From positions 1-54,626 of the forward strand of contig CANIEV010000005.1 in NCBI GenBank assembly GCA_947466535.1: a stretch of 54,626 nt of DNA, in the 5' to 3' direction. The notes beneath the pieces were generated by a model, which saw only the letters and a list, made by a program, of their open reading frames with translations, ran no database searches and was not told where the DNA came from. Position numbers and translations under genes: made by a program. The stretch's first letter is position 1, and each line of letters opens with the position of its first letter. The DNA is from Betaproteobacteria bacterium. GTDB lineage: Bacteria > Pseudomonadota > Gammaproteobacteria > Burkholderiales > SG8-39. Below, in pieces: positions 4,886-39,593 of this stretch.

Positions 4886-5431
4886 ATGAAAAACAACATC
4901 CGGCGGGTGGTCACCGGTCACGACGCGGGCGGAAAGGCGGTCGTCGTGATCGACGGCATCGCGCCCAACGTGAAGGTGCGCGAGGCCCAGGGTGGGCTGG
5001 TGTCAACTCTGTTATGGGCGACCGACGAATGCCCGGCGGACATCTCGGGCGCGGCGGATCGCGCCGAGCGCACGATAGGCGTGCCGCCGCCCGATCGCGG
5101 CTCGGTGTTCCGCATGGTGGATTTTCCTCCGGTGGCAACCGCCGGCCGTGTGGACAATGCAGCGGTGCTCAAGGAGATGGGACTGGACCCGGGCAAGGTG
5201 TCGGACCGCAGCGGCTTCATGCATCGTACGCGCAGCATCGACTACGCGATCGTGGTCTCGGGCGAGATCGACATGCTGCTCGACGATTCCGAGGTGCATC
5301 TCAAGGCGGGCGACGTGATGGTGCAGCAGGGCACCAACCACGCCTGGGAGAACCGCGGGACGCAAACCTGCCGGATTGCCTTCGTGCTGATCGATGCGCT
5401 GACGCCGGCGCAGCTGAAGGGGCGGGATTAG
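4886..5431 (+). CDS. Cupin domain protein
   Basis: 181 residues. The C-terminal half has the cupin pattern: SIDYAIVVSGEIDMLLDDSEVHLKAGD split over two beta motifs, then VMVQQGTNHAWENRG with the QGTNHAW histidine. The first-motif histidines are replaced (DYAIVVSGE), common in this small-cupin group, so metal binding may be incomplete. Proteins of this type are often found beside aromatic catabolic genes, where functions range from isomerase to sensor; no reaction can be assigned. It is divergent from the Bug-amidohydrolase-MTHFR operon and followed by a repeat array. ATG at 4886 is preceded by GGATGGACCG, a weak Shine-Dalgarno region. Confidence 0.82.
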   Translation: MKNNIRRVVTGHDAGGKAVVVIDGIAPNVKVREAQGGLVSTLLWATDECPADISGAADRAERTIGVPPPDRGSVFRMVDFPPVATAGRVDNAAVLKEMGLDPGKVSDRSGFMHRTRSIDYAIVVSGEIDMLLDDSEVHLKAGDVMVQQGTNHAWENRGTQTCRIAFVLIDALTPAQLKGRD

Positions 5432-5449
5432 CCCAAGGCTGTACCGGCG

Positions 5450-5830
5450 GAGATCGCGTCGCTGCGCTCGCGATGACGTCCGCTACCGGTCATTGCGAGC
5501 GCAGCGAAGCAATCTCAGTCGGGTCGAGCGCAGCGAAGCAATCTCAGTCGGGTCGAGCGCAGCGACGCAATCTGCAGTTTTCGGTGTGACCTCGGGTAGG
5601 CATCGCGCGAGATGGAGATTGCTTCGTCGCCTGCGGCTCCTCGCAATGACGGTCGCTACCGGTCATTGCGAGCGAAGCGACGCAATCTAGGGCGGGTCGA
5701 GCGAAGCGAAGCAATCTGCCTCACCGGGGTGTTACTGCGTGTGGGCTGGAGCTTGCTTCGTCGCCTTCTGCTCCTCGCAACGACGGCCACTGCCCGTCAT
5801 TGCGAGCGCAGCGAAGCAATCTCAGATGTA
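5450..5830. repeat. Array of CATTGCGAG-type palindromic repeats filling the gene-free gap
   Basis: The 410-bp gap between the cupin and the luciferase-like gene is nearly all repeat. Three modules each have an inverted copy, about 11 bp, then a forward copy of GTCATTGCGAGCG..GCAATCT: 5450-5478 with 5489-5517, 5615-5650 with 5662-5688, and 5751-5784 with 5796-5822. Each can fold into a long hairpin. The first is extended by a 29-bp tandem repeat (units at 5495, 5524 and a partial one at 5553). Similar dispersed elements are known from many bacterial genomes. I see no gene here; the region can also separate the convergent transcripts. Confidence 0.85.
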
Positions 5831-5841
5831 GCGACGCAATC

Positions 5842-12432: not shown

Positions 12433-13548
12433 ATGTCGGCCAATCCAGCAGAAGTGAAATACATCGATGCGCGTGCCGGTTCCGGCAGGCGCGACCGGCG
12501 CAGCTGGGGCGAGCTCGAAGCCGAACTCGCCACCGGGCTTCGCAACCACTGGTATGCGCTCATTCCGTCGGACGAAGTGCCGGCGGACAAGCCGCTTGGC
12601 ATCACCCGCATGGGCGAGGACCTCGTCCTCTGGCGCGACGGCGACGGCAGGATCCGGGTGATGTCGGACAAGTGCCCGCATCGCGGTGCGAAGCTGTCGC
12701 TCGGCAAGGTGCACAGCGGCGGCCTGATGTGCTGGTACCACGGCTGGTTCTTCGAGCCCTCGGGTCAATGCACCAGCATCCCGTCCGAGGGCGGCGCCTG
12801 CGAGCTCGCGAACGAGGTGAAGGTGCGCAGCTACCCGGTCGAGGAACACGGCGGCCTGGTGTATGCGTACTTCCCCGCCGAGGGCACGCCCGAGGGCGCG
12901 GCGCCGGCCGAGCCCTGCCCGAATCCCTACGAGCTGGAGAGCCCGGAGTGGAACGGCTTCATCGTCCGCCATCACTGGAAGGGCGTGAACTGGTTCCGCG
13001 CGATGGACAACCTGATCGATCCGCTGCACGCGCCGTTCCTGCACGCGGGCACCTACACGCTCAACAAGACCACGGGCTACAAGGACCATATCGAGGTGCG
13101 CAAGAACGAGGACGGCAGCTACTTCGTCGGGCGCAAGGGGCAGGCGCTGGTGAATTTCGATTTCACCGAGTTCCACTTCCCGAACTGGTTCCGGCTGGAC
13201 ATTCCCTATCCGTGGTCGGCCGGGCCGGGCGGGCCGATGCGCATCCTCGTCACCGTCTGCCCGATCGATGCCGACTCCTGCCAGGTGTACATGGTGCGCA
13301 AGCGCAAGATCACCGGCTGGAAGTGGTGGCTCTGGGCTTTCCTCTGGCATGTGCGCCTGGAGAACAAGATGTGGCAGGTGATCGATCAGGACGAGGCGAT
13401 CCTCGCATCACAGCGGGTGGGCGAGGCGCTTACCAGCGAATACCTGGTGCAGGGTGACACGGGACTTGTCACGCTGCGCAACCTGTTCCGCGAAGCGGTG
13501 GCGAAGCAGGCAGATGCTCAACAAGACAACCCGCGGGGCGCACGATGA
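12433..13548 (+). CDS. Rieske-type aromatic ring oxygenase, terminal oxygenase subunit (2)
   Basis: 371 residues. Rieske ligands Cys81, His83, Cys100 and His103 (CPHRG, CWYHG); mononuclear iron motif DNLIDPLHAPFLH with Asp196, His199 and His204. Class as for phthalate 4,5-dioxygenase or vanillate demethylase oxygenase subunits. It shares fold and N-terminal style (TGLRNHWYALIPSDEVP) with the divergent Rieske protein but is clearly distinct. It is the first gene of the plus-strand catabolic block and overlaps the LigA-like gene by four bases (ATGA), implying translational coupling. Start supported by GAGGAGATTGGA upstream. The electron-transfer reductase is not in the window. Confidence 0.93.
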   Translation: MSANPAEVKYIDARAGSGRRDRRSWGELEAELATGLRNHWYALIPSDEVPADKPLGITRMGEDLVLWRDGDGRIRVMSDKCPHRGAKLSLGKVHSGGLMCWYHGWFFEPSGQCTSIPSEGGACELANEVKVRSYPVEEHGGLVYAYFPAEGTPEGAAPAEPCPNPYELESPEWNGFIVRHHWKGVNWFRAMDNLIDPLHAPFLHAGTYTLNKTTGYKDHIEVRKNEDGSYFVGRKGQALVNFDFTEFHFPNWFRLDIPYPWSAGPGGPMRILVTVCPIDADSCQVYMVRKRKITGWKWWLWAFLWHVRLENKMWQVIDQDEAILASQRVGEALTSEYLVQGDTGLVTLRNLFREAVAKQADAQQDNPRGAR

Positions 13549-13820
13549 GTCTGTACGGCATGCAGAAGTTCATGTTCGTCCTGAAAAAGGACAAGTCGCT
13601 GCAGGCGAAATTCAAGGAGGATGCGCAGGGTGCGCTCGGTTCCTTCCCGCTCAGCCAGCCCGAGAAGGACGCGCTTGCCGCGGGGGATCTGGCTGCGCTC
13701 TACACGATGGGCGTGCATCCGCTGCTGCTCGCCCCGTATTCGCGTTTCATGGCAATTCCCCGACCCAAATACCAGACCGCACTCGACCCGCTGAGGGGTC
13801 TGCGCGTGCTGCGTAGCTAG
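13545..13820 (+). CDS. LigA-like protein (protocatechuate 4,5-dioxygenase alpha-chain family)
   Basis: 91 residues, shorter than LigA of Sphingobium (about 139) and similar to stand-alone LigA-like domains. It has the helical pattern SLQAKFKEDAQGALGSFPLS and ALAAGDLAALYTMGVHPLLL seen in this family. LigA-type subunits cap the active site of a LigB-type catalytic subunit; the matching LigB-like gene starts 129 bp downstream. The start overlaps the stop of the Rieske gene. The gap to ligB is unusual in this otherwise tight operon because it contains a two-hairpin repeat element. Confidence 0.85.
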   Translation: MSLYGMQKFMFVLKKDKSLQAKFKEDAQGALGSFPLSQPEKDALAAGDLAALYTMGVHPLLLAPYSRFMAIPRPKYQTALDPLRGLRVLRS

Positions 13821-13828
13821 AGAGAGTT

Positions 13829-13922
13829 TGAACAAGGGGGCGATGCCCCCTTGTAGATTCCCCAATTCAGACGGAAGCTGAGATTGATTCGTTGCACGAT
13901 ATGAACCAATCGCAGCTTCCGT
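13829..13922 (+). repeat. Two-hairpin intergenic element, copy 1 (between ligA-like and ligB-like genes)
   Basis: Hairpin I is 13832-13854: ACAAGGGGGC, loop GAT, GCCCCCTTGT, a perfect ten-base-pair stem. Hairpin II is 13871-13922: outer stem ACGGAAGCT with AGCTTCCGT, a 2x2 internal loop, inner stem GATTG with CAATC and a 20-base loop. The element ends 27 bp before the ligB-like start codon. Copies 2 and 3 are at 27553 and 38371. It could be a mobile REP/MITE-like element, an RNA-processing or stability element, or a leader RNA. There is no T-run, so it is not a canonical terminator. Confidence 0.75.
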
Positions 13923-13949
13923 GAACGGAAAGAACGGAAAGAACCGACC

Positions 13950-14762
13950 ATGGGAAGTCTCGTATTCGCAGGAGCAATGAGACACGCGCCCGGTATCGCT
14001 GCGTTCACCAATGCGGCGAGCCCGGAGCAGCGCGCGAGCTTTTTCGGTGCCACCGATCAACTCAAGGCGGCGGCGGCCGCCGCGGCGCCGGATGTGATGT
14101 TGGTGATCGCACCGGATCATTTTTCCAATTTCTTCATCGACAACATGCCGCCCGCCTGCGTCACGCTGAACGAGGCATACCCGGGGCCGGTGGAAGACTG
14201 GCTGGGCATTTCGAAAGTATCGATCAAGGGCGCGCCGGATCTTGCACGCTCGATTCTCAAGCATGCGTTTGACGCGGGCATCGAACCCGCGTTCTCCGAG
14301 GACGCGGCGCTCGAGCACGGTGTGATCGTGCCGCTCAATCTTGTCACGCCCGGATTCGGCGTTCCGATCGTCTGGATCATGCAGAACTGCCAGGTGCCAC
14401 CGCTGCTGTCGCTCGCGCGCTGCCACGCCTTCGGTCGCGCGATCCGCAAGGCGATCGACGCGAGTTCGCTGCGCGTGGGCGTGCTCGGCACCGGCGGACT
14501 CTCGCATGCGCCGGGTGCGGCGGAGGCCGATCGGCTGGATGAGGAGTTCGATCGCGATTTCCTCGGGCGTCTGGATCGCAATGCGGTCGACGAAATTCTT
14601 TCCATGCCGAATGCGCGGCTCGATGCCGCAGGTTTCGGAAGTTGGGAAATACGCCAGTGGGTGACCGCTTTGGGCGTGGCGCACGACCGCAAGCCGCGCA
14701 CGCTCGCCTACGAAGCGGTGGTCGAGTGGGACACCGGCTGCGCAGTCGCGATCTACGAGTGA
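13950..14762 (+). CDS. LigB-like class III extradiol ring-cleavage dioxygenase catalytic subunit
   Basis: 270 residues. By comparison with LigB, the iron ligands His12 (MRHAPG), His57 (APDHFSN) and Glu233 (WEIRQW) and the catalytic base His186 (GGLSHAPG) are all present, so an active Fe(II) extradiol dioxygenase is expected. It would open a catechol-type ring using O2, with the LigA-like protein as partner. Substrate could be protocatechuate, gallate, an aminophenol or another catechol derivative; sequence alone does not tell. The start is preceded by two tandem GAACGGAAA units, giving a GGAAAG Shine-Dalgarno-like site. Confidence 0.92.
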   Translation: MGSLVFAGAMRHAPGIAAFTNAASPEQRASFFGATDQLKAAAAAAAPDVMLVIAPDHFSNFFIDNMPPACVTLNEAYPGPVEDWLGISKVSIKGAPDLARSILKHAFDAGIEPAFSEDAALEHGVIVPLNLVTPGFGVPIVWIMQNCQVPPLLSLARCHAFGRAIRKAIDASSLRVGVLGTGGLSHAPGAAEADRLDEEFDRDFLGRLDRNAVDEILSMPNARLDAAGFGSWEIRQWVTALGVAHDRKPRTLAYEAVVEWDTGCAVAIYE

Positions 14763-27314: not shown

Positions 27315-27552
27315 GTGTCATTTTCCATGCGTAGGATGCGGGGACACGGCCTGGTTTTCCAGCGATCTCCAAACCAATCTGTCACTGACCTGAATTCCTC
27401 GATGCAAATTCCTCGTTGTGACCCTTGATCTGGGCGCTTTGCGTCTTCGGATTCATCTTCGTCCGGAGGATGGAACTGTTCCTGCATCGCGAGAAGTGAA
27501 CCGCCGCCGGTGGGAATGTGCGGAACGAGAGGATCGGGACCTTAGGGAGCCA
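27315..27552. other. Gene-free stretch with a short hydrophobic C-terminal-like fragment
   Basis: No convincing gene. In one plus-strand frame, 27422-27499 reads PLIWALCVFGFIFVRRMELF and then a short tail to a stop, bounded upstream by a stop at 27419. It looks like the end of a membrane protein and may be a remnant, but it is too short to be sure. The two-hairpin element follows. Confidence 0.4.
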
Positions 27553-27647
27553 CTGAACAAGGGGGCTACGCCCCCTCGTAACTCCCCCATCTCAGATGGG
27601 AACGCTGAACCTTCAAGCCTCGAAATTGGACTTGATCAGCGATTCCT
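27553..27647 (+). repeat. Two-hairpin intergenic element, copy 2 (upstream of a luciferase-like gene)
   Basis: Hairpin I 27557-27579: ACAAGGGGGC, loop TAC, GCCCCCTCGT with one mismatch. Hairpin II 27599-27646: GGAA/TTCC, one bulged A, CGCTGA/TCAGCG, an ACCT bulge, then TCAAG/CTTGA with a 13-base loop. Compared with copies 1 and 3 the stem sequence differs but the pairing is kept. It ends 71 bp before the start codon at 27719. Confidence 0.75.
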
Positions 27648-27718
27648 TACTAAAGCATTCCGGATTCGATACCGTTAAGATCGATCCTTGACGACACTTT
27701 CGTCGGACGAGGCCCGCA

Positions 27719-28720
27719 ATGAAATTCACTCTCCATCTCAGCACCCGCATCCAGGACAAGCGCAACGAGCTTCCTCTCATCAACTACATGACCGAGCTTG
27801 CGCTCGAGGCCGACGTCACCGGCTTTGAAGCGATATCGCTCACCGAGCATCACCTGCACGAGAACCAGGGCTATCAGAACTCGCTGCTCTTCGCGTGCGC
27901 GCTCGCGCCGCGGCTGAAGCAGGCGACGCTGGTTCTCGCCACGGTGAATCCGGCTATCCACCATCCGGTGCGGCTGGTGGAGTCGTGCAACCTGATCGAC
28001 CAGTTGAACGGCGGGCGGCTGGTGGTGGGATTCGGCTCCGGGTTCAAGGACACGGACCTGATCGCCTTCGGGAGAGATCTTTCGCAGCGCTCGACGCTGT
28101 TCGAGGACAGCATCCGCACGGTGCTGGATGTCTGGGCGTTCGACCGCTCGAAAGGGCCGCTGGACTTTGCTGTGGGCAGCGAGCGCGGGCGGATAGAGTC
28201 GCCGGTGAATCCGTCGTCCTTTCGCAAGCCGCATCCGATGCTCGCGCGCGGCACGCTGAACGAGCAGGCGGTGCTCGAGACCGCCGCGCGCGGATGGGCG
28301 GTGCTCACCGCGGCGAAGACGCCGGAGGATGCAAAGCGGCAGATGGCCAAATACCACGCGGCGCTCGATGCGGCGGGTCACGATGCGGAAACCGTTCGCC
28401 GCGCGCGCGCCTGGTCGGCGGTGGGCAAGGCGCTGCACGTGGCCGAGACCGACGCGCAGGCACGGGCGGAAGCCACCGCGTTCTTCGAGAAGAACCCGAG
28501 CGGCGCGATCGCGCGCAATCCGGACGACATGATCTGTGGCAGCCCGGAGACGGTCACGCGCACGATGCGCGCCTTCGCCGAGTCGGGCGTCGGGCAGATG
28601 ATCTGCGGCCCGCTGATCGACGTCGAAGATCGGTCGGCGCTTCAACGCAGCCTGCGGTTGCTGCGGGAGGAAGTGATTCCGAAGGTCAGCCGCGAGGCGC
28701 CCGCGCTTCAGGCTGCGTGA
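27719..28720 (+). CDS. LLM-class flavin-dependent oxidoreductase (2)
   Basis: 333 residues of luciferase-like TIM-barrel fold: MKFTLHLSTRIQDKR start, ISLTEHHLHENQGYQNSLLF, VNPAIHHPVRLVESCNLIDQ and GGRLVVGFGSGFKDTD. It belongs to the same superfamily as the proteins at 5842 and 30498 but is clearly a different subgroup. It is probably a single-gene transcription unit with the two-hairpin element in its leader. Substrate and flavin cofactor (FMN or F420) cannot be assigned. Confidence 0.9.
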   Translation: MKFTLHLSTRIQDKRNELPLINYMTELALEADVTGFEAISLTEHHLHENQGYQNSLLFACALAPRLKQATLVLATVNPAIHHPVRLVESCNLIDQLNGGRLVVGFGSGFKDTDLIAFGRDLSQRSTLFEDSIRTVLDVWAFDRSKGPLDFAVGSERGRIESPVNPSSFRKPHPMLARGTLNEQAVLETAARGWAVLTAAKTPEDAKRQMAKYHAALDAAGHDAETVRRARAWSAVGKALHVAETDAQARAEATAFFEKNPSGAIARNPDDMICGSPETVTRTMRAFAESGVGQMICGPLIDVEDRSALQRSLRLLREEVIPKVSREAPALQAA

Positions 28721-38271: not shown

Positions 38272-38370
38272 CGGGCCCGGCTAAGGCGAAGCGTGTTGGC
38301 GGATGCGGTCAGGGAGTACATACCCGCATGTTAGACTTTGCATTGATTTTCCGCGAGTTAGGGATAGCGC

Positions 38371-38476
38371 AAACAAGGGGGCGATGCCCCCAATGTTAGT
38401 CCCCTGCTCCAATCCCCCACTTCAGAGGGAAGCTTCGCTTGATTCGTCGCAGAATATGAATTGATCAGAGCTTCCT
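38371..38476 (+). repeat. Two-hairpin intergenic element, copy 3 (upstream of aroC)
   Basis: Hairpin I 38377-38391: GGGGGC, loop GAT, GCCCCC, with AACA/TGTT able to extend it. Hairpin II 38428-38475: GGAAGCT/AGCTTCC, an internal loop, then TTGATTC/GAATTGA with two G-U pairs. Its loop sequence (CGTCGCAGAATAT) closely matches copy 1 (CGTTGCACGATAT). It ends 16 bp before the aroC ATG, so it would be in the 5' leader of the message. Confidence 0.75.
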
Positions 38477-38492
38477 TACACGAGTAATTTCC

Positions 38493-39593
38493 ATGTCCGG
38501 CAACAGCTTCGGCACCCTGTTTTGCGTAACCTCCTTCGGCGAATCCCACGGTCCGGCCCTTGGAGGCGTAATCGACGGCTGCCCGCCGGGCATGTCGCTC
38601 GACGCGGCGGACATCCAGAAGCAACTCGACCGGCGCAAACCGGGCACCTCACGTCATGTGACGCAGCGCCAGGAATCGGACCGGATCGAGCTTCTGTCGG
38701 GGATTTTCGAGGGAAAAACCACCGGCACGCCGATCGGCTTCGTGATCCGCAACGAGGACCAGCGCTCCAAGGACTATTCGGACATCGCCCGGACCTTCCG
38801 TCCCGGTCATGCGGATTACACCTATACACAGAAGTACGGCTTTCGCGATTTTCGCGGCGGCGGACGCGCGTCGGCTCGCGAAACCACGGTACGGGTAGCG
38901 GCGGGCGCGGTTGCAAAAAAATGGCTGGCCGAAACCTACGGCGTCGTGGTGCGCGGCTACCTGTCGCAACTCGGTCCGCATGTCGTGCCGTTCAAGCGCT
39001 GGGATGCGGTGGGTGCGAATCCGTTTTTCGTCGCCGACCCGGATGCGGTGCCGGCGCTCGAAGCCTTCATGGATGACCTGAGGCGCGACGGCGATTCCTG
39101 TGGCGCGCGCGTGACGGTGATTGCCGAGGGCGTTCCTGTTGGCTGGGGCGAACCGGTGTACGGCAGACTCGACGCGGACATCGCCGCGGGCATGATGGGA
39201 ATCAACGCGGTGAAGGGCGTGGAAATCGGTGCGGGATTTGAGTCGGTCGACCAGCGAGGGAGCGTGCACGGCGACGAACTCACGCCGGAGGGCTTTCTTT
39301 CGAATCATGCGGGCGGCGTGTTGGGTGGCATTTCTACGGGGCAGGATGTGGTGGTGAGCATCGCACTGAAACCGACTTCGTCAATCCGAATTCCGAGGCA
39401 ATCAATCGATCTGGACGGCAAGCCCGTGACAGTCGCCACGACCGGGCGCCACGACCCCTGCGTGGGCATACGCGCCACTCCCATCGCCGAGGCGATGCTG
39501 GCCTGCGTACTGATGGACCATGCGTTGCGCCATCGGGCGCAGTGCGGTGACGTGACGACAGTCACGCCGAAAATCGGCGAGCGACGCGGCTGA
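38493..39593 (+). CDS. aroC: Chorismate synthase
   Basis: 366 residues, full length. Signature sequences are [20 protein letters not shown] at the start, a central [20 protein letters not shown] and [16 protein letters not shown] near the end. It catalyses the last shikimate-pathway step, EPSP to chorismate, using reduced FMN. It is a single gene with the two-hairpin element directly upstream and only a weak Shine-Dalgarno (ACGAG). In related bacteria an MFS transporter gene follows aroC; here a 1038-codon gene on the other strand lies between them. Confidence 0.97.

Follow-up and report, generated by a model that had tools for sequence, protein, structure and literature searches.

Three hairpin repeats in a betaproteobacterial contig are very probably copies of an IS5-type MITE whose target duplication often falls on stop codons

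The 54,626 bp stretch of contig CANIEV010000005.1 analyzed here (the window) carries three copies of a two-hairpin repeat, and these are almost certainly copies of a non-autonomous transposon of the IS5 family, that is, a MITE. The repeats are short, non-coding and multi-copy, with terminal inverted repeats and a target duplication of fixed length; their ends match those of IS5-family elements (loci L081 and L268, discussed below) and their target is YTAR. The first-pass annotation had found the three copies, all on the + strand, and had proposed a leader RNA, an RNA-processing site, or a REP or MITE element that prefers 5′ leaders; the MITE part of that proposal stands, and the 5′ leader preference and the regulatory-RNA reading do not.

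The spans of the three copies with their target sites are slightly wider than first reported (bp 13817–13924, 27542–27650 and 38358–38479). Copy 1 proper (bp 13821–13920, + strand) is 100 bp long and is an old, diverged, A-like copy that matches the consensus of subfamily A at 76%. Its hairpin 1 (bp 13831–13854; AACAAGGGGGC-GAT-GCCCCCTTGT) overlaps the inner end of the left inverted repeat, and its hairpin 2 (bp 13873–13920) is formed by an inner arm, GGAAGCT (bp 13873–13879), and the right terminal inverted repeat, AGCTTCC (bp 13914–13920); both the GGGGGC-NNN-GCCCCC hairpin and this second one fold as had been claimed. The left target-site duplication is CTAG (bp 13817–13820), in which TAG (bp 13818–13820) is the stop codon of the ligA-like gene (bp 13545–13820; PF07746), and the right target-site position (bp 13921–13924) is decayed and reads GTGA today. 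The ligB-like gene (bp 13950–14762; PF02900) lies 25 bp past this position. Copies 2 (bp 27542–27650) and 3 (bp 38358–38479) both have flanking tetramers TTAG/TTAC; copy 2 is 99% to the young subfamily C and is followed by a luciferase-like monooxygenase gene (bp 27719–28720; PF00296), and copy 3, which has a 14-bp internal insertion and falls in none of subfamilies A, B and C, is followed by aroC (bp 38493–39593), a chorismate synthase gene named from its sequence. All four genes are on the + strand, and the identities first given to them hold; the reported gap of 16–71 bp to the next gene is roughly right for the three window copies, whereas the wider family does not keep to it. The window also contains an array of a different palindromic repeat at bp 5431–5831 (CGAGCGNAGCGAAGCAATCT and inverted copies), a motif that recurs in L146 and L023.

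Copy 1, used as a DNA query, matched 57 times within its own draft genome (341 contigs, ~90% complete). A covariance model trained on 22 copies, the check for more copies proposed at first pass, gave at least 147 matches there with E ≤ 0.01, in about 140 places; 147 is a lower bound, as scoring covered 150 of the 1437 first-look candidates, and three of the 147 listed matches are antisense repeats of others. Copies 1, 2 and 3 score 109, 95.9 and 83.4 bits, respectively. With this many model matches the repeats are far from chance. The 110 full-length copies extracted and aligned for the study of anatomy and flanks fall into three main subfamilies, A (18 copies), B (41) and C (48), with three copies in none. 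Subfamily C is nearly uniform (median 98% to its own consensus) and was thus amplified late. An apparent chimaera, with a subfamily B left end and a subfamily C right part, lies at L160 1497–1604.

The element is ~100 bp long, which leaves no room for a transposase, and runs from left end GGANNNTCTGAACAAG to right end CTTGATCAGAGCTTCC with a tetramer at each side; its terminal inverted repeats are imperfect and ~16 bp long. The target duplication is 4 bp with the consensus YTAR. The flanking tetramers are identical in 62 of the 110 copies, compared with a mean of 10.9 and a maximum of 22 when right tetramers were shuffled among copies (10,000 shuffles). Identical pairs include TGAA, TGAG, CTTG, TAAG, TTCA, CTCT, CGAA and TTTC; many of these are asymmetric (TGAG, CTTG, TTCA, CTCT and TTTC), and the match is thus not a by-product of symmetry. 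YTAR is present on both sides of 51 copies, and in 46 of these the two tetramers are identical (13.5 expected). Several tandem pairs of copies overlap by exactly 4 bp, as expected if the new copy took the tetramer of the old one as its target. At TTTCTAGGTACAG, the sister genome G001 (L223) has an empty site where G000 (L118) has a filled one, and the two alleles differ by the element plus 4 bp; the empty allele reads ...GCGCGTTTC-TAGGTACAG... and the filled allele ...GCGCGTTTCTAG-[100 bp]-TTAGGTACAG.... Two further pairs of sister loci (L160/L196 and L146/L200) also align without the element, but their borders are messier and so only L118/L223 is counted as proof of an empty site. The ligB gene in the sister genome is a fragment at a contig edge, and this proof thus comes from L118/L223 and not from copy 1.

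Complete IS5 transposase elements of related bacteria have nearly the same ends as the MITE, with CTAG duplications. One, in a genome of the same bacterial family (G007, L081), reads CTAG|GGAATCTCTGAACAAG ... CTTGTTCAGACATTCC|CTAG and encodes a transposase that matches the NCBIfam IS5 family model NF033581 (E 3.8e-105) and Pfam DUF772 and DDE_Tnp_1; another, in a different family of the same order (G041, L268), has an 18-bp perfect repeat, GGAAGGTCTGAACAAGTC, and CTAG. From these relatives we infer that the mobilising enzyme would be an IS5-type transposase acting in trans. No IS5 DUF772 protein and no matching transposase was found in the source draft genome (~90% complete). Draft assemblies often lose IS elements. 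The only DDE_Tnp_1 hit of the genome (L046) was considered as a partner and rejected; it looks ISAs1-type by eye, and the single match to the MITE ends there has four mismatches and lies inside its own transposase gene. The MITE consensus had no match in a plasmid collection. YTAR is also the published target duplication of IS5 elements (PMC10359306).

The repeats are short, palindromic, extragenic, numerous and at times tandem, as are REP or BIME sequences moved by a RAYT (Y1) transposase (PMC2817692), but we consider it highly improbable that they belong to that class: the PF01797 protein is absent from the source genome and its sister, the GTAG/GTGG-type head of published REPs is lacking (PMC2817692), and 4-bp duplications and DDE-type inverted repeats are seen instead.

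Genes were called with a simple home-made codon-usage caller that was checked on the window. In 47 of the 109 copies that lie outside genes, the TAR of the tetramer is the stop codon (TAA or TAG) of the neighboring gene, and copy 1, on the ligA TAG, is such a case. Compared with non-genic YTAR sites that are unoccupied and 300 bp or more away, and stratified by tetramer, the odds ratio for stop codons is ~4.9, and the excess is significant in each class (CTAG, p 0.001; TTAA, p 0.016; CTAA/TTAG, p 0.014). Just one of 110 copies is inside a called gene, versus 113 of 324 unoccupied YTAR sites. A gene hit at its stop codon survives the insertion, because the duplication restores the stop. Stop codons are at the left end in 34 copies and at the right end in 13 (binomial p 0.003), and these copies thus favor the direction of the gene they follow. 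Neighboring genes occur in all four orientations (34, 26, 21 and 18), which gives no support to a general preference for 5′ leaders. The literature searched offered no direct precedent for an insertion element that targets stop codons, and it did not confirm that mycobacterial MIRUs lie at overlapping stop and start codons.

The placement of the copies also bears on the idea that selection keeps them in front of particular genes as a regulatory leader RNA or an RNA-processing element. The two-hairpin fold is stable, 95.7% of cells retain their pairing, the covariation exceeds both shuffles and slid controls, and the three window copies are all upstream of same-strand genes; nevertheless, this is a very unlikely explanation, since the family stands in both orientations to genes and 47 of its 109 copies outside genes coincide exactly with a stop codon, and its insertion is demonstrated by the matched target duplications and the empty site. 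Copies in both orientations and at gene 3′ ends are what the first-pass annotation itself had named as grounds for refutation. Nor is an orthologous position conserved: copy 3, at aroC, is also present in G001 (the sole sister genome searched), but the element is absent from 18 other aroC loci and 19 ligB-like loci in the other relatives scanned. The Rfam comparison suggested at first pass gave no match for the window and seven loci.

The fold itself is real, but the covariation is weak and mostly reflects one difference between subfamilies. Hairpin 1 has no two-sided changes among 99 distinct sequences. Hairpin 2 has them at five pairs, and 41 of the 48 such cells are at a single pair, at which the commonest types (G-C, 42; U-A, 37) largely separate the subfamilies; in addition, two of the 13 pairs (columns 122–203 and 123–202) are in the target tetramer and hence outside the element. 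The compensatory changes taken at first as a sign of selection on the fold do therefore exist, but are largely of this kind. The hairpins and a 34-nt core are conserved beyond what the ends alone would require, and they may have an additional role. A hairpin variant, AAAAGGGGGC...GCCCCCTTTT, is present in L313, L315, L318, L319, L330, L372 and L375, with some copies preceded by a GGGTGTTGAAAAAG-like end; it is a compensatory change at the base of the stem, perhaps with a different IS-type end.

The transposition of the MITE probably proceeds as follows. An IS5-type transposase supplied in trans would bind the MITE ends, cut at YTAR and paste in copies, leaving the 4-bp duplication behind. Where a target's TAA or TAG stop is within YTAR, it would be duplicated on either side of the insert and the gene would remain whole; such copying of stop codons, together with loss of insertions inside genes, would bring nearly half of the copies onto stops. 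In the second hairpin, the right end pairs with an inverted copy of itself that lies further inside the element. The hairpins of transcribed copies would end up in 3′ UTRs or in the spacers of operons, and a change in RNA stability or in the coupling of ligA to ligB, if there is one, would be a by-product.

The closest described element is MITEPsy1 of Pseudomonas syringae, an ISPsy2-related MITE of the IS5 family that is 100 nt long and was trapped in active transposition; it has ~18-nt inverted repeats (GGAAGGTCTGAAAAAGCC / GTATCCTCTGAAAAAGCC) and a 4-nt duplication of CTAG or YTAA (PMC3189936). The likeness rests on the published length, ends and target. By this description, the family studied here joins MITEPsy1 as a new member of its kind. 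MITEPsy1 has six copies in strain 1448A, compared with about 140 places here, and the stop-codon bias seen here was not found in the available part of its description (PMC3189936). Correia/NEMIS, RUP and similar MITEs likewise are ~100–155 bp long, with inverted repeats and high copy number, and have base-paired transcripts and are moved in trans (PMC2229807); RUP, however, is related to IS630 and has TA targets (PMC2229807), whereas the present family is related to IS5 and has a 4-bp YTAR duplication.

The 34-nt hairpin core, GAACAAGGGGGCNNNGCCCCCTTGTANATCCCCC, is also found apart from IS5 ends: in genera g9, g23, g5 and others belonging to the bacterial family of the source genome, and in about ten places in the source genome itself (L011, L161, L357, L361, L362, L363, L365, L370 and L374); the named genomes that carry it are, with few exceptions, betaproteobacterial metagenome-assembled genomes. 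At these loci of the source genome and at L296-L351 and L176-L224, such cores lie between long direct repeats that consist of the start or the end of a gene. Of the 76 copies in other genomes, 31 have a long direct repeat on both sides of the core with a score above 11, the 99% score of the null; further cases are in G000, and none of 104 IS5-type copies has such a repeat. The repeats are mostly 20–106 bp, and the left copy usually stops 7–10 nt before AACAAG. The repeated stretch is often the start of a gene (by sequence, those of YchF, fructose-bisphosphate aldolase, glutamate-1-semialdehyde aminomutase, MoxR, exonuclease III and a GlnQ-type ATPase) and in other cases the 3′ end of one, and in several cores an inverted copy of the left flank directly follows the core. 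At one G009 locus, both of whose neighboring regions are matched by three other genomes of the same genus, BLAST places the core between two copies of a 71-bp repeat that is single-copy in those three genomes. Where the reading frame is certain, the left fragment seems by eye to differ from the intact gene mostly by synonymous changes, which is suggestive only; the raw automatic count, with mis-framed cases included, is 24 synonymous and 18 non-synonymous. Pairs of cores 120–145 bp apart with the intervening stretch repeated, resembling a small tandem array, are present at L206 (5560/5705), L215 (5766/5886) and L300.

These cores are possibly a distinct kind of element, and as a class they may be more novel than the window MITE. 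It is quite possible, though short of probable, that the MITE is composite, an older independent 34-nt core having gained IS5 ends in some lineages. The cores between long direct repeats without IS5 ends favor such an origin, as does the lack of such repeats at IS5-type copies, but the first bases of the core, GAACAAG, also form the inner end of inverted repeats in genuine IS5 elements, and so the core could be a relic of the MITE instead. A composite origin concerns where the element came from and is compatible with the IS5-type MITE explanation. We propose tentatively, and regard as rather unlikely, that the core is a new kind of mobile or structure-driven element. It would insert near the start or the end of a gene with a direct duplication of ~20–106 bp, which rebuilds the damaged gene end next to it, and in some cases it would add a short inverted flank copy; the window MITE would be one lineage that acquired or lent this core.

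The long-duplication class, if real, would be an unusual mode of insertion and would allow a direct test of how short hairpins get between two copies of a gene end. As for the window repeats, what appeared to be a new RNA element becomes a derivative of an insertion sequence, and it is a clean example of target choice making a transposon nearly harmless: because the YTAR duplication copies TAA and TAG stops, the family can reach about 140 copies in a gene-dense genome with one of 110 copies inside a called gene.
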